From contig OX387602.1 in the NCBI GenBank assembly GCA_947568835.1, forward strand, positions 26,029,021 through 26,093,020: a DNA stretch of 64,000 nucleotides, written 5' to 3'. Each line of letters starts with the position of its first letter. The first letter of the stretch is position 1. This DNA comes from Protonemura montana. Taxonomy: Eukaryota; Arthropoda; Insecta; Plecoptera; Nemouridae. The notes below the pieces were generated by a model that saw only the letters and a list, made by a program, of their open reading frames with translations, was not told where the DNA came from and ran no database searches. The translations under genes were made by a program, and so were the position numbers. This document shows positions 42,489 through 64,000 of this stretch, piece after piece.

Positions 42489-42666
42489 GGACTCGAGCTT
42501 CGATCTCCACCTGTCGCGGGTGTTGCTCTAACCATTAGAGCTACATGAACATGTCATTTTTTAGAAGATTTTAGTGCATTTGAAGAAAATTTTGGAGGTT
42601 ATTAGAGTTTCTAACAATAAAATACTTTGCCCATTGCAAGCATTTGCAATTTAAATCATATTTCGC
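42489..42666 (-). repeat. Degenerate single-head copy of the tRNA-related repeat
   Basis: The minus strand reads GTAGCTCTAATGGTTAGAGC (D-arm like, GCTC/GAGC), ACACCCGCGACAGGTGG and AGCTCGAGTCC. To its right are AAGATTTTAGTG, AACAATAAAATAC and TTGCAATTTAAATCA, the same order as the 63.2-63.6 kb element. The T-stem and acceptor do not pair well and position 33 is G instead of T, which rules out a functional tRNA. Confidence 0.75.
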
Positions 42667-43486
42667 AAGTTATCAAAATACAAAAAAAAAGTAAGTGCAT
42701 TTTTTTTTCGAAATGTTTGCCCACTTATTCTCAGATTGAAACACGATATTGCTCCTACATCCCACGTTTTACGAACATATAAGATAATAGTGATAGAAAA
42801 TGCTGTAATATTTGACCCGTGATTATTGATGGCTCACAACTAACTATATAATGATAACCAGATGTACGACGAAGTAAAGTCTCAAATGTGACAATGCATA
42901 TAGGTCACATCAATAAATAGTTACTTCTATAAAATATACAAATGCATAACAGATAATAGATCTACTTACACAATGGATTAACAGCTATACTTGTAGCGGA
43001 TTGAATTTCACAAATATCCAGAGCATCGTTTGTGGATGAATTAAGCACGAATTTGTGTATTCATTGCTGTAATTATGCATCACAATTCGAAAGTATAGAC
43101 GACTTGCACATTCATAAATCATAGAATTGACAGCCGAAATCAGATCAGATTTAGAAACAGTTGATAACGCATTTACGGGTTTTGTCTATTTCCAATTTCG
43201 TCATCCAGATCCTTTATCGCAACGAAATCAATGCAACAGATAGGTAAATGTATTGATTCCCGTTCCAGATATAAAATCGAAATCCAACGCGTGGACCTGT
43301 TCGACAATAATTTTCCCCATTTCTCATCTGACTGTCGCTAAGCGTCCATTGGTTCTTGGTGTTTGGCTTTGAGCGTGGACAACCTTCAATTAATATGATT
43401 TGTCAGGATTTAGCCACTAAATGAGTAGCTAGGTCGTCAAAGTACATGGATAGTGGGCAAAAGAAAGCAACTAGGATTTCGTACAA

Positions 43487-43632
43487 GTCATATCAACTAG
43501 GATAGTGGAGAGGTCATATCAACTAGGATAGTGGACGGGTCATAGCAACTAGGATAGTGGACAGGTCATAGCAACTAGGATAGTGGACAGGTCATAGCAA
43601 CTAGGATAGTGGACAGGTCATAGCATCTAGCG
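43487..43632 (+). repeat. 26-bp minisatellite, five full units plus a partial
   Basis: GTCATA(T/G)CAACTAGGATAGTG starts at 43487, 43513, 43539, 43565, 43591 and 43617, always 26 bp apart. The last unit decays after GTCATAGCATCTAG. Units have no spacers between them, so this is a simple tandem array. Confidence 0.93.
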
Positions 43633-58827: not shown

Positions 58828-58912
58828 TTTCACCCATCCAATACCTGACCCAGCGATGTGTTGCTTAAAGTCGGTGATCTCAGAAGACAGAACTCGTTGC
58901 TTCCAACACGCT
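58828..58912 (-). repeat. Short 5S rRNA-derived repeat, solo copy
   Basis: On the minus strand this reads GTGTTGGAAGCAAC, then ATCACCGACTTTAAGCAAC, then GTATTGGATGGGTGA. These follow the order of the 5S rRNA internal promoter (box A region GAAGTTAAGC and box C region GGATGGGTGACC) with several changes. It lacks the 91-bp tandem array and the downstream body of the two larger copies. It lies about 525 bp upstream of the FAM234 start codon in the same orientation, so it may overlap the promoter or 5' UTR. The divergence and missing 3' part argue against a working 5S gene. Confidence 0.75.
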
Positions 58913-59422: not shown

Positions 59423-59430
59423 TATTACCT

Positions 59431-60158
59431 GTTTGGCGTGTTGGAAACACCAGTTCTCGTTAAATCACCGAAGTTAAGCAACACTGCGCTGGGTCAGGTA
59501 TTGGATGGGTGACCATCATACACATGACCAGTTCTGTTCGGGAGAGAGGTTAGAGAGATGAAAGTTAAGCAACACTGCGCTGGGTCAGGTATTGGATGGG
59601 TGACCATCATACACATGACCAGTTCTGTTTGGGAGAGAGGTTGGAGGGATGAAAGTTAAGCAACACTGCGCTGAGTCAGGTATTGGATGGGTGACAATCA
59701 TACACATGACCAGTTCTGTTCGGGAGAGAGGTTGGAGGGATCAAAGTTACGCAACACTGCGCTGGGTCAGGTATTGGATGGGTGACCAACATACACATGA
59801 CCAGTTCTGTTCGGGAGAGAGGTTGGAGAGATGAAAGTTAAGCAACACTGCGCTGAGTCAGGTATTGGATGGGTGACCATCACACACATGACCTGTTCTG
59901 TTCGGGAGAGAGGTTGGAGGGATGAAAGTTAATATAGGAACTTCACTCGCCTTGCTTATCAACCTCTCGACAGCATGGATTTATGGAGAAATCCTGTTGT
60001 TCGCGTTATACCGTCCTTCGGAAGGGACGTTAAGCCGGTGGTCCAAGCTTTTCAACAGAAGTAGGGTACGTGCAGTCACCGGGTTTCCCCGCCTCCCTTC
60101 TAGGCTAGGTTAGATTAATCATCATCCTCATAATCATCCGCTCATACACCGTCACCAT
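59431..60158 (+). mobile_element. 5S rRNA-headed SINE-like element with five 91-bp head units
   Basis: The element starts with GTTTGGCGTGTTGG and a 5S-like segment (CACCAGTTCTCGT, ATCACCGAAGTTAAGCAAC, GTATTGGATGGGTGACC). The GTTAAGC core then recurs at 59473, 59564, 59655, 59746 and 59837 (GTTAC in the fourth), and the last junction is at 59928, so the spacing is exactly 91 bp each time. The body (59928-60158) has a GC-rich pseudo-palindrome, CGTCCTTCGGAAGGGACG, and ends near an ATCATCATCC tract. The same body is present in reverse at 62.1-62.4 kb. No clear target-site duplication was found and the 3' end looks shortened. The 5S head predicts Pol III transcription from internal boxes A and C; no coding capacity is seen. 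Confidence 0.85.
59473..59927 (+). repeat. 91-bp tandem array, five units, 5S rRNA-derived
   Basis: Five units of exactly 91 bp. Each holds a box A-like core (GTTAAGCAACACTGCGCT), a box C-like core (GGATGGGTGACC) and a spacer with CCAGTTCTGTTCGGGAGAG. Units differ by a few substitutions; for example, GCTGAGTCAGG replaces GCTGGGTCAGG in units 3 and 5. There are no length differences. Confidence 0.9.
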
Positions 60159-62098
60159 GTAATTTAAGGCAATTCGAGTAACTTAATGTGTACAATAATA
60201 AGAATATACTGAGGTACCTTTAGGCGGAAGGAAAATTTGGAAGTGGAAGTTACAGGAATTCCAGATTTACAAGCCCCGCAAATTCGTGAAATTTCTTTTC
60301 ATCCAGGGATCGCAATCAAAAGGCTATAGGGTTGTAAATTTTTATATCACAACACAATATATAGAATGACATTAACATCGCCATCAAATACAATTCAAAT
60401 GCTTTAACAATATCTGAATTACTATTTACGTGTTTGTGTTTACGTAAATCTTGCTGACTGTGAGAGTGATTCATTTGATATTTCCAAGCGTTTGTTCCGT
60501 GAGGTCAGTGGTCATGGCCGATTATAATCTGTGATTTGTGGAGATTATAATCAATCGCCCAGCATTAGCTTAACTTAAGACGCGCGAAAACCATGAAAAA
60601 CGAACGTCCGAGGCGGGCCTCACGGGTGCAAACAGGAACATTATGCAGGCGAGCGATAAAGTCCTATGGCTTGTAAATTTGGTCACATGAATCTCAAAGC
60701 ATCTGAGGAAACTCTACTCTCCCTTATGACTCGATCTGCTATGATTTTACGTTAACTTAATTGACCCAATATTACATATTCTAGGCGTAAGGCAAGCTAA
60801 GAGAAAAAAACGCAACATGAGAGAAGAGAAAAAAAATTGGACATGAAAACTAGAAGATCAAATTAACCTAATTCCAGCGACCCTCAACGATGGACAAAGC
60901 GACAAAGAAACAACCATTCGACACCAAAACCGAACAAACCGAACAAACCTAACAAACCTAACAAACCTAACAAACCTACTACGGTTCGGTACCGAACCTA
61001 TCTAACTGTGAAGAACGGAATAACCTCTAGCAAGAACCTACAACAATCCAAAACTTGGACAGGAAGTCTAACAACAATGGCCTTGTCCCCAAATTTTTCT
61101 CGACTTCTCTCATGTCACACAAATGAATCAAGAATTATGAATATTTCCCGAACTCGAGACGCAAACAGCCTCTGAACTGACGTGACGTTAAGCCCCACAA
61201 AGCAAGCAATTAAATATGTTATCTAACTAACAAAAGTTGCCCCATGTTTCCTCAGAGCCCCGATAAAACTCTCACAGAGCGTCCTCGCTACAATTTCCAG
61301 GGCTTGAAGCAAGGTCTCGTCGGAGGAAGCCAAGATGCATCGGCTTCCAGCAGCGGCTCGTGGAGTTCACCTGAAGACAACAGAATAAAGTGACATTAGA
61401 CTCATTGCCAGGTACATGACGACTCTTGCACTCAGTAAAACATGCTCCGGACAGCTACGTTTACTCGGGGAAAAGTGCAAATCCAGCTTGGACGAAATGA
61501 AACACTAGATTTTTTTACTTGTCATGAACCTTTGATTGGGTTTAGTTTTGTCAGCTGTTTTCTAGTGTTCACGACGGGTCGAAAGTCAGTGCAAAATGCA
61601 AACGAACTGTTGTGGAGATCAAGAACTAGTTTTTGCTAACATTGCACTGCTTCATTGAATGTGGAAAATGTGTGGAAAAAGTGAAGAACTGGCAAACAAA
61701 GAACTATTTTCTTGTGGACTTGAGAACTTGGATAAAGCTTGCGCTGATATTTCATTGTTGGGAACGAAGGATTAACATAATATATTTGTGCCAGCATTGT
61801 TGGGATCTGTCAATAGAGTGCGTTTACCATTGCGGTAAGTGTATCAGTCATATATTATCAGATGTATGTGAAGGCTCGTGCCAACTTACATCTATCGACG
61901 CTGCAGTAGCGACGTCTCGATGACGCAGGTAGGAGATTGGATTCTGTCCCACCGCGACCAGCAATCGGATCGCGGACAACGTTCCATGTAAACCAAGGCT
62001 GAGTAGAAACCTGCGTGAAAAGGAAGGCCGCGGATTAGTCGACACATTCTATTAGTTTCCGCTAGACGGTCGCTAGCGACAACTTTTCGAGGTCAATT
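60159..62098. other. Non-coding spacer between the two long 5S-headed elements
   Basis: Apart from the 9-bp repeat at 60.93 kb, I see no recognisable gene, RNA or mobile element here. ORFs are short (96 codons at most) and unremarkable. Confidence 0.5.
60933..60979 (+). repeat. 9-bp tandem repeat (AACAAACCT), five copies
   Basis: Five head-to-tail copies of a 9-mer, the first reading AACAAACCG. They are followed at 60983-60998 by the perfect 16-bp palindrome GGTTCGGTACCGAACC. The repeat lies in non-coding DNA between the two 5S-headed elements. Confidence 0.8.
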
Positions 62099-62113
62099 CC
62101 AAGTATGTGCCAC
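62099..62113 (+). repeat. Target-site duplication, left copy (15 bp)
   Basis: CCAAGTATGTGCCAC, identical to 62817-62831. It flanks the 3' (AAT-tailed) end of the minus-strand SINE. Confidence 0.92.
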
Positions 62114-62816
62114 TTATTATTATTTGTGGTGTTTAACGACGCACTGTTTTGACAACTGGCCATGCGGCACTGGTCTAATGGCGTCGGTGAATGAGTGGAT
62201 GATGATGATGAACCTAACCTAGTCTAGAAGGGAGAAGGGTAAACCCGGTGCCGGCACGTAGCCTACTTCTGTCGAAGACCAAGGGGACCACCGGCTTAAC
62301 GTCCCTTCCGAAGGACGGTACAACGCGAACAACAGGATTCCTCCACAAATCCATGCTGTCGAGAGGTTGATAAGCAAGGCGAGTGAAGTCGCTGTACTAA
62401 CTTTCATCCCTCCAACCTCTCTCCCGAACAGAACTGGTCATGTGTATGATGGTCACCCATCCGATACCTGACCTAGCGCAGTGTTGCTTAACTTTCATCC
62501 CTCTAACCTCTCTCCCAAACAGAACTGGTCATGTGTATGATGGTCACCCATGCAATACCTGACCCAGCGCAGTGTTGCTTAACTTTCATCCCTCCAACCT
62601 CTCTCCCGAACAGAACTGGTAATGTGTATGATGGTCACCCATCCAATACCTGACCCAGCGCAGTGTTGCTTAACTTTCATCTCTCCAACCTCTCTCCCGA
62701 ACAAAACTGGTCATGTGTATGATGGTCACCCATTCAATACCTGACTCAGCGCAGTGTTGCTTAACTTCGGTGATCTAACAAGAACCGGTGTTTCCAACAC
62801 GCCAAACCGTTCGGTC
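62114..62816 (-). mobile_element. Complete 5S rRNA-headed SINE with four 91-bp head units and target-site duplication
   Basis: Read on the minus strand, the 5' end lies at 62816 and continues into GTTTGGCGTGTTGG, CACCGGTTCTTG and ATCACCGAAGTTAAGCAAC. Four 91-bp units follow (TTGCTTAAC on the plus strand at 62757, 62666, 62575 and 62484). Next comes the same body as the 59.9-kb copy, with CGTCCTTCGGAAGG (palindrome near 62310), a CATCATCATCATCC tract, and a 3' end CGTCGTTAAACACCAC plus an AATAATAATAA tail. It is bounded by perfect 15-bp direct repeats at 62099-62113 and 62817-62831. Head, body, simple-repeat tail and duplication together are the hallmarks of a LINE-mobilised SINE of the 5S class (SINE3-type). 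The TTAAACACCAC end resembles tails common in invertebrate retroposons, from memory. Confidence 0.92.
62393..62760 (-). repeat. 91-bp tandem array, four units, 5S rRNA-derived
   Basis: Four units with 91-bp spacing inside the minus-strand SINE. They match the 59.5-kb array in unit length and sequence but differ in copy number. In 5' to 3' order the variant positions read CTGAGTCAG, CTGGGTCAG, CTGGGTCAG, CTAGGTCAG. Confidence 0.9.
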
Positions 62817-62831
62817 CCAAGTATGTGCCAC
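62817..62831 (+). repeat. Target-site duplication, right copy (15 bp)
   Basis: CCAAGTATGTGCCAC, identical to 62099-62113. It flanks the 5' (5S-like) end of the minus-strand SINE and defines its exact start at 62816. Confidence 0.92.
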
Positions 62832-63198
62832 GTAAGTTCGACGCTGGGGGTCGATTCCACGAATGGGAACAAATTCTCAGGAGGGTAGTTATGCTTTGGT
62901 TTGGTGCAGGGAGCTTGACATCCATGCAGTGCTAAAGTAAGATGGTAAAAAGCGTACCTCTAGTTTTGTGGTCCGGCACATTCCATCGTAAGTCTCTTGT
63001 CTGAGGGAAGTCGTATCGCTTTGGTTCCTCGAAGTCTTCACGGTCACTTTCCTTGATCGCGACCAAAAACTGCAGACTGTAGATAAAACAAAAAATACGT
63101 TAGTCACGAGTACCAGCAGTTTGCAACGCCACTGGGACGGGCAGATGCGAAATTTAAACAAGAAAATAACAATGGACAGACTCGTTTTTTTAATTATT
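62832..63198. other. Non-coding spacer
   Basis: This lies between the 5S-headed SINE and the tRNA-related inverted repeat. A 90-codon minus-strand ORF at 62889-63161 is not recognisable and has no supporting signals. Confidence 0.4.
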
Positions 63199-63220
63199 CT
63201 ACTACTACTATTATTCTACT

Positions 63221-63579
63221 ATAACCGTCTCAAAAATTGATGCCCAAACGCGGACTCGAACCCCGACCTCCACCTGTCGTGGGTGTTGCTTTAACCAATT
63301 GAGCTACTTGAACCCCGATCTCCACCTGTCGTGGATGTTGCTCTAACCAATTGAGCTACTTGAACCCCGATCTCCACCTGTCGTGGATGTTGCTCTAACC
63401 AATTGAGCTACTTGGACCCCGATCTCCACCTGTCGCGGGTGTTGCTCTGAACCATGGAGTTATTTGGGCACTGTCTTTTTGAGACGATTTTAGTGTAATG
63501 GCTCAATAATTCAGAGCAACACCCAGGTGGAGATCGGGGTTCGAGTCCGCGTTTGGGCATCAATTTTTGAGACGGTTAT
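63221..63579. repeat. 56-bp inverted repeat, 247-bp loop
   Basis: Arms 63221-63276 and 63524-63579 are reverse complements with a single mismatch. The loop holds the remaining tRNA-like heads and TTTTTGAGACGATTTTAGTG. The arms include the box B and the CGTTTGGGCATC flank. Confidence 0.9.
63258..63465 (-). repeat. 52-bp tandem array of tRNA-like heads, four units
   Basis: Exact 52-bp spacing over four units. Internal junctions join the T-arm of one unit straight into the D-arm region of the next (GGGGTTCAAGTAGCTC), so only the outermost unit keeps an intact box B. Units differ by a few substitutions. Confidence 0.88.
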
Positions 63580-63645
63580 AGTGTTGTTAATAATAAAATA
63601 CCCCGCTCCTTGCAAGCGTTTGCAATTTAAATCAGATTTCATCCT

Positions 63646-63963
63646 AATGGACAGACTTGTTTGGTGCAAGGAAAGTTAGAAGAATCGATTCTTGCAGGGG
63701 ATTTATTGTGGAAAATGCTGATAGAATCGTGGCTTACCATTGGTTAGTCGAGCAGTGTGTCAATCTTCCTTCTTCACCAGAGTCTCGGGAGACGAAGAGT
63801 TACGGGCGCTGATTGTGGAGCCTCGAGGTCAGCTGGGAATCGAAGGACAAAAATAAAACAAACGTTAGGCGGACAAATCTCACCGTGCAGAGTTGCATCG
63901 AGTTTCAAAATTTTCCCGAAGCTTTTCAAAACTCCTAGGAGAACTGTCATTCTCATCAAATAC
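63646..63963. other. Non-coding spacer
   Basis: I see no recognisable gene or repeat. A 63-codon minus-strand ORF at 63774-63965 runs into the edge repeat and is not recognisable. Confidence 0.4.
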
Positions 63964-64000
63964 ACTAGAATCGTCTCAAAAAGCCAGTGTCCAAGTAGCT
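63964..64000 (+). repeat. Truncated copy of the tRNA-related repeat at the window edge
   Basis: The reverse complement of this stretch matches 63458-63494 (ACTTGGACACTG..TTTTTGAGACGATT) with a few substitutions. It is therefore another copy in the opposite orientation that runs out of the window. Confidence 0.7.

Follow-up and report, generated by a model that had tools for sequence, protein, structure and literature searches.

A 64,000-bp stretch of contig C1 of the plecopteran Protonemura montana (G000:C1:26029021-26093020, hereafter the window) carries tandem arrays in two unrelated families of elements of the RNA polymerase III (Pol III) type: a short interspersed element (SINE) derived from 5S rRNA, in which a 91-bp head unit is multiplied, and a tRNA-derived element, in which a 52-bp unit is multiplied. 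We think it probable that these arrays are early SINE-derived satellites, which change in size in place and some of which are retrotransposed with several heads. Since unit number changes in place, since arrays carry private variants and higher-order repeats, and since the promoter part of the 5S-derived unit is not specially conserved, the main engine would be satellite expansion at the DNA level.

An earlier note, drawn from the letters of the window, had described five and four 91-bp heads and four 52-bp heads at this locus, and both Tandem Repeats Finder (TRF) and Rfam bear the description out. The arrays of both families in the window are far beyond chance. The features concerned are as follows.

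58830-58911, minus strand: truncated, diverged 5S-type fragment (self-BLAST, 84% to 59436-59512).
59431-59470, plus strand: 5S-like 5' leader of the left 5S-derived SINE (Rfam 5S rRNA match, RF00001, at 59423-59543, plus strand, 46.3 bits).
59471-59932, plus strand: array of five 91-bp head units, left 5S element (TRF, period 91, 5.1 copies, 94% matches; unit alignment).
59933-60158, plus strand: single-copy body of the left 5S element, in which the 3' end has been lost or has diverged (homologous to the right element and to other copies).
62099-62113, minus strand: target-site duplication on the 3' side of the right 5S element (CCAAGTATGTGCCAC at 62099 and 62817).
62114-62397, minus strand: body and 3' tail of the right 5S element (from the sequence).
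62398-62767, minus strand: array of four 91-bp head units, right 5S element (TRF, period 91, 4.1 copies, 94% matches; four heads by anchors).
62768-62816, minus strand: 5' leader of the right 5S element (Rfam RF00001 match at 62695-62815, minus strand, 59 bits).
62817-62831, minus strand: target-site duplication on the 5' side of the right 5S element (repeat of CCAAGTATGTGCCAC).
63171-63187, no strand: left target-site duplication of the tRNA-type inverted pair (AATGGACAGACTCGTTT at 63171, differing from the right copy at one position).
63188-63485, minus strand: minus arm of the pair, tRNA-Ser-like, with four 52-bp units at 63254-63454 (TRF, period 52, 3.8 copies, 94% matches; Rfam tRNA match at 63241-63313, minus strand, 33 bits, called tRNA-Ser by ARAGORN; unit listing; arm border approximate).
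63486-63645, plus strand: plus arm of the pair, which holds a single tRNA-like unit and has a tail unlike that of the minus arm (self-BLAST, inverted match of 63218-63276 and 63524-63582; sequence).
63646-63662, no strand: right target-site duplication of the tRNA-type inverted pair (AATGGACAGACTTGTTT at 63646).

The two 5S-derived elements (59431-60158, plus strand, and 62114-62816, minus strand) are inverted with their heads outward. Their 91-bp unit comprises a putative 5S internal-promoter part of ~44 nt, within which the promoter boxes presumably hold their usual positions, and a linker of ~47 nt, and leader and body are each present once. The right-hand element is a complete insertion within its 15-bp target-site duplication; a duplication was looked for around the left-hand element and none was found, and self-BLAST revealed no terminal direct repeats of the long terminal repeat (LTR) kind in the window elements. 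The tRNA-type copy with four units, of which the first is degenerate, forms an inverted pair with an arm of one unit, the tails pointing outward (~63188-63645), and a 17-bp duplication flanks the whole pair. That the rest of the element is single-copy, as the earlier note had it, stands for the 5S-derived elements. In the tRNA-derived element ~175 nt precede the tRNA block in fuller copies (L091 and L095, with similar stretches in L074, L076, L084 and L088), so that the block is not a 5' head; a tRNA-like 5' end, a trait of tRNA-derived SINEs, is absent from this element. The observed/expected ratio of CpG in the window is 1.0.

Multiplied units are found throughout the genome assembly (258 Mb in 34 contigs), which we searched with patterns for unit junctions or anchors, listing ~100 places per pattern. 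Allowing up to three mismatches, junctions between 91-bp units were matched 24,936 times (12,497 + 12,439) and those between 52-bp units 13,035 times (6,355 + 6,680), while the reversed-pattern controls for both gave no match; the boundary between tRNA unit and tail was matched 1,518 + 1,552 times. Head number in the 5S-derived elements was taken as the leader-to-body distance between exact anchors, a measure that misses copies with mutated anchors, presumably to much the same extent whatever the head number, and that gave 1067, 248, 213 and 132 elements with one, two, three and four heads. We also read 40 loci anchored on the 5S body motif, namely the first 30 exact places (L031-L060) and 10 chosen plus-strand places of the same list at ~5-17 Mb (L101-L110). 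The leader was found in 28 of these, and the heads numbered one in 13, two in five, three in three, five in three, six in three and eight in one (in L106, L107 and L108 the single head is partial). Larger arrays occur as well: in the 3-kb loci L001/L008 there are 21 complete 91-bp units plus a partial unit, and neither end of the element is reached, and the overlapping 3-kb loci L070 and L073 are filled by a 52-bp array of 45 and 58 units. Among 10 chosen plus-strand places of the 3,070 matches to the tRNA-element tail (L091-L100), eight have one unit beside the anchored tail by reading, L092 has three and L098 two. Because both families carry it genome-wide, variable head number is a family trait in both and not the product of slippage at this one locus, which the earlier note had offered as the explanation should arrays be confined here.

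The unit of the 5S family is a portion of a SINE: single-head copies exist in which the 91-bp unit sits between leader and body, and the edges of arrays run into leader and body at many loci, although L001 and L011 are without one or both ends. Target-site duplications accompany further 5S copies (L036, L040, L102, L103, L110, L037 and L053).

Further evidence comes from insertions that are present in several copies. The genome has 18 copies of the flank of the right-hand 5S insertion, spread over C1, C2, C4, C5 and C11, and in 12 of the 18 an anchored element is resolved, always at the offset of 61 bp that the window also shows. These 12 carry one head (one copy), two heads (four), three heads (five) or four heads (two, one of them the window). 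The other four-head copy, L082 at C1 25.10 Mb, was confirmed by sequence (98.08% over 2,187 bp); the 5S unit numbers at duplicated sites are otherwise taken from coordinates, letters having been read for the window and L082, and the rows with one to four heads were picked by eye among the matches listed. The left-hand flank is itself a member of a repeat family, with 268 + 357 matches, and from 45 of the 100 places listed among these 625 we found copies at an offset of 48 (47 in one) with three, three and four heads, as against five in the window; in a copy at C1:22.42 Mb the distance from flank to body is exactly 91 bp longer, giving six heads, and one at C1:20.98 Mb, in which exact junctions fall at phases 9 and 11, must have at least 12. 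The tRNA-derived family behaves in the same way, one insertion with shared flanks having four, four and two units and another six, seven and nine, the latter with identities of 99.5% and 96.5% and gaps of 52, 104 and 156. As copies of a single insertion carry different numbers of units, unit number changes in place, after insertion.

The same comparison bears on template slippage or switching during reverse transcription, which would make an array at the moment of insertion and which the earlier note had named first among possible mechanisms. The multiplied blocks do end at short direct repeats that a reverse transcriptase could use too. Slippage of this kind cannot, however, account for an insertion whose copies differ in unit number, nor for a tRNA array of 45-58 units filling 3-kb loci, nor for the higher-order repeat found there, and since copies of one insertion do differ in this way, most of the variation can be explained without it. 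We regard it as improbable in general and, as the only cause, as refuted, although it could still produce the initial duplication.

Units within a 5S array are closer to one another than shuffled units (0.042 versus 0.056; 0 of 1000 shuffles), six private variants are common to at least two units of one array, and the distance dips at lag 2 (0.032, versus 0.040 at lag 1). In L070 the tRNA array forms a four-unit higher-order repeat (0.033 at lag 4 versus 0.059 at lag 1), with a further dip at lag 10. Units are thus partially homogenised in the 5S arrays and in the higher-order repeat of L070. Arrays are hard to assemble, and one might ask whether they are artefacts of joining repeated DNA; the exact 91-bp and 52-bp phase, the variants private to each array and the concordant flanks at many loci make this hardly credible.

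In both families the multiplied block is the promoter part, and the earlier note had accordingly suggested selection for more promoters; on this reading, extra A, intermediate-element (IE) and C boxes, or A and B boxes, would raise transcription and thus copy number. Two further observations might be read in its favor. In the tRNA arrays, with box borders placed where we assume them, the A-box part is the least diverged (2.7%, versus 4.0% in the middle and 4.2% in the B-box part). At unit site 22 of the 5S family the array units are mostly G (55 G, 25 A, 2 T), which we take to be the usual 5S letter, while A stands in 10 of 11 readable single heads; with leaderless first units left out here and in the array counts, first units and others do not differ significantly at this site (P = 0.14). 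Conservation of the A-box part is, however, only slightly higher, and that of the B-box part does not exceed that of the middle; in the 5S arrays the 5S part is no more conserved than the linker (divergence 3.6% versus 2.8%); one-head copies (1067) outnumber those with two, three and four heads together (593); and tandem runs other than whole promoter units occur. Selection for more promoters is therefore not supported, and we consider it very improbable, nor do these data favor the more general notion that the multiplication concerns the promoter as such.

The other tandem runs take several forms. In L051 a second type has a 92-bp period made up of leader and promoter part joined at a shared GACC or ACC; it adjoins 91-bp arrays (in L051 and in L022/L046), and the unit variants of L051 alternate. 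Within a 5S element at one locus (L015/L034, C1 ~275.5-278.7 kb) there are ~80 or more copies of a 15-bp piece of the 91-bp head, taken from unit positions ~40-60. The repeat flanking the left-hand 5S element forms arrays of ~148-bp period at C1:30953069-30958854, C4:160568-162647 and C4:2089051-2091009 (by coordinates); its copy beside that element in the window has no Rfam or tRNA match. Because the 15-bp run and the ~148-bp arrays also occur, a general DNA process appears to be at work. A shared mechanism in the two families, which the earlier note had suggested, is likely; that it is aimed at the promoter as such is not supported.

Besides changing in place, multi-head copies have been mobilized at least once. 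In locus L037 the element opens within a head, at unit position 53, and immediately abuts a 14-bp target-site duplication; seven full units follow, and the 14-bp sequence recurs beyond the 3' tail. A truncated head cannot regrow in place, and the source RNA must therefore have contained two heads or more; units 2-3 and 4-5 seem to stem from a local duplication that came later. This is the one clear case of reverse transcription of an RNA with two heads or more. Two other copies, L041 and L055, begin within a unit but no target-site duplication was found for them; L011 and the first array of L025 begin within a unit as well. On the question raised by the earlier note, whether arrays are inherited with the element or formed after insertion, both routes appear to contribute: change in place after insertion, and a multi-head RNA reverse-transcribed in the case of L037.

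On C1, multi-head 5S copies also tend to lie nearer to the contig ends. The test relied on was distance to the contig end, with a one-head 5S set drawn from C1; there the median distance is 2.14 Mb for two-head and 4.63 Mb for one-head copies (29 and 77 listed copies, P = 1.4e-5), and cut-offs of 3-6 Mb give P = 1.3e-5 to 0.026. Among leader-bearing 5S copies on C1, none of nine at ~5-17 Mb and 15 of 19 at 0-3.5 Mb are multi-head. A cut of 2-19 Mb, set after seeing the data, gave P = 0.0021 against body loci and P = 0.00019 against one-head loci for the 5S family, and P = 0.30 for the tRNA family. For the latter the distance test covered C1-C3, with the end of C3 set at 27.2 Mb from the highest coordinate seen and places collapsed to loci by hand, and junction loci lay at a median of 1.28 Mb against 2.34 Mb for tail loci (22 and 77 among the matches listed, P = 0.014).

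Several observations weigh against satellite expansion in place, favored toward chromosome ends, as the full account. The position effect of the tRNA family is weak, fixed cut-offs giving P = 0.46-1.0, and a comparison of the middle 20-80% of C1 with the rest gave P = 0.14 for 5S junction versus one-head loci and P = 1.0 for the tRNA family. The density of one-head copies, too, rises toward the ends (43 of 77 listed within 5 Mb, where 30% are expected) and several duplicated copies far from contig ends (on C2 and C5) hold two or three heads, so that end position is a tendency and no more. Thirteen of 24 5S arrays hold both family-wide states of site 22 and are therefore not mere copies of one local head; such mixtures require that mixed arrays were inherited or that loci exchanged units. 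Finally, the bodies of multi-head elements are slightly younger (4.4% versus 6.3% from consensus, P = 0.015), and on the body tree, from which L031, L052 and L054 were left out and which is nearly star-shaped and decides little, multi-head elements show weak clustering (9 label changes versus 12.3 when shuffled; 18 of 500). Both of the latter would be expected if the multi-head state were partly inherited.

Such inheritance is the core of another reading, in which a few multi-head sources were retrotransposed as SINE subfamilies and head number is mostly inherited. It is compatible with the satellite reading, and the probabilities of the two overlap. The RNA behind L037, the younger bodies, the mixed arrays and the weak clustering are all in its favor, yet the labels are scattered over the body tree, head number differs among copies of one insertion, and the leader-bearing copies at ~5-17 Mb include no multi-head element. 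Nor was inheritance of units by position, as first or last, seen between elements, first units being no closer between 5S elements than first and other units (0.060 versus 0.058) and last units no closer than last and other units (0.058 versus 0.057). As the chief explanation we find it rather doubtful. The mixed site-22 arrays and L037 are also compatible with a closed SINE-satellite cycle, perhaps running in two unrelated families, in which units multiply in place, multi-head copies are transcribed from an upstream head and retrotransposed, and new arrays are seeded, the satellite thereby spreading in the manner of a mobile element; that such a cycle, and not separate duplications in place, founded many of the arrays is a tentative suggestion, to which we give somewhat less than an even chance.

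Returning to early SINE-derived satellites, we envisage the following course. A single-head element would insert by target-primed reverse transcription, as the target-site duplications suggest. In single-head 5S elements AAGTTA stands at either end of the 91-bp block, and in the tRNA-derived element TCCAAGT and TCGAGT flank the 52-bp block. These short direct repeats may give rise to the first tandem duplication through slippage or unequal exchange, although on sequence grounds they fit strand slippage, unequal exchange and template switching alike. Unequal exchange or slippage between whole units would then add and remove them in place, in the 5S family more often toward chromosome ends, with local homogenisation and the rise of higher-order repeats. 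Some multi-head copies would be transcribed and retrotransposed as multi-head RNA, as in the one copy L037, and so seed arrays elsewhere. The extra promoters would need no function.

The tRNA-derived element has features of its own. Its target-site duplications vary in length (17 bp in the window; L091 and L096 by reading). By reading, seven of the 10 tail-anchored loci L091-L100 have an inverted copy of the element's own tail at the 5' side, with the tails outward, and these look as if two RNAs had been target-primed from both strands; in the window the tails of the two arms differ. We considered and rejected a DNA transposon with terminal inverted repeats, the inverted part and the target-site duplications being variable in length by reading. 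A further copy of the element lies at 42489-42664 of the window (81-91% identical in pieces). A 26-bp tandem repeat of 6.3 copies (TRF) at 43466-43630 has no Rfam or tRNA match, and at 60927-60978 there is a run of AAACCTAAC (5.8 copies, TRF), which we take to resemble telomere-like repeats. The part of the window at 61825-64000, matched in L082, is a segmental duplication and holds an exon-like stretch; a 39-aa peptide from it has no Pfam match, nor do two open reading frames of the window, one of which is also without PDB match or homologue.

More than one Pol III-type region per element is familiar from dimeric SINEs such as Alu, and the Twin SINE of Culex reportedly has the same property. 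Alu is a fixed dimer, and Twin is said to be one throughout its family; here the array is variable.

In the portions of the cited papers on which the following comparisons draw, the closest described system is that of squamate SINE-derived satellites (sSats; Vassetzky et al. 2023, PMC10702118). Those have units of partial SINEs, element ends at the array edge, widely variable unit number, subtelomeric preference and alternating dimer patterns; at orthologous loci of two rattlesnakes unit number is equal in 74% and differs by one in 14%, and the authors leave restriction to squamates uncertain (PMC10702118). Our arrays agree in having units that are parts of a SINE, retained element ends, numbers that vary between loci and between homologous loci, and partial homogenisation. 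The squamate sSats derive from tRNA-related SINEs, unlike our arrays, which include a 5S-derived SINE, often keep leader and body, and show one multi-head copy retrotransposed. With SINE3 elements (HaSE3, PMC3272025; PxSE4/5, PMC8010984) the 5S family shares a 5S-related 5' part, internal promoter region, body, 3' tail and target-site duplications, but those accounts, in which the word 'tandem' is absent from the main text, mention no multiplied heads. The Helenus, Ajax and Cassandra terminal-repeat retrotransposons in miniature (TRIMs) also contain tRNA-like or 5S-like sequence within a mobile element, with LTRs and, in Helenus and Ajax, target-site duplications of 4-5 bp (PMC10886601); in contrast to TRIMs (TRIMp3, Helenus/Ajax), the elements here have clear duplications of ~10-17 bp and no LTRs were seen. 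The satellites of Hoplias, Physalaemus and Plantago (PMC12692304) are likewise tandem repeats related to 5S but, by title, derive from 5S ribosomal DNA and not from a SINE head with leader and body. Other SINE-like tandem repeats occur in amphibians (review, PMC9659126). In our literature search no 5S-SINE-derived satellite turned up in titles or abstract openings, which is weak evidence of absence, subscription papers being thinly covered.

With the arrays described here, the range of SINE-derived satellites would come to include a 5S-derived SINE and a further genome. The insertion present at 18 sites, of which 12 were resolved and carry one to four heads, amounts to a natural experiment, and with it the birth of satellites, the gain and loss of units and the effects of position become measurable within one assembly. 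If it is true that multi-head RNAs retrotranspose often, satellites can spread by the route of mobile elements.

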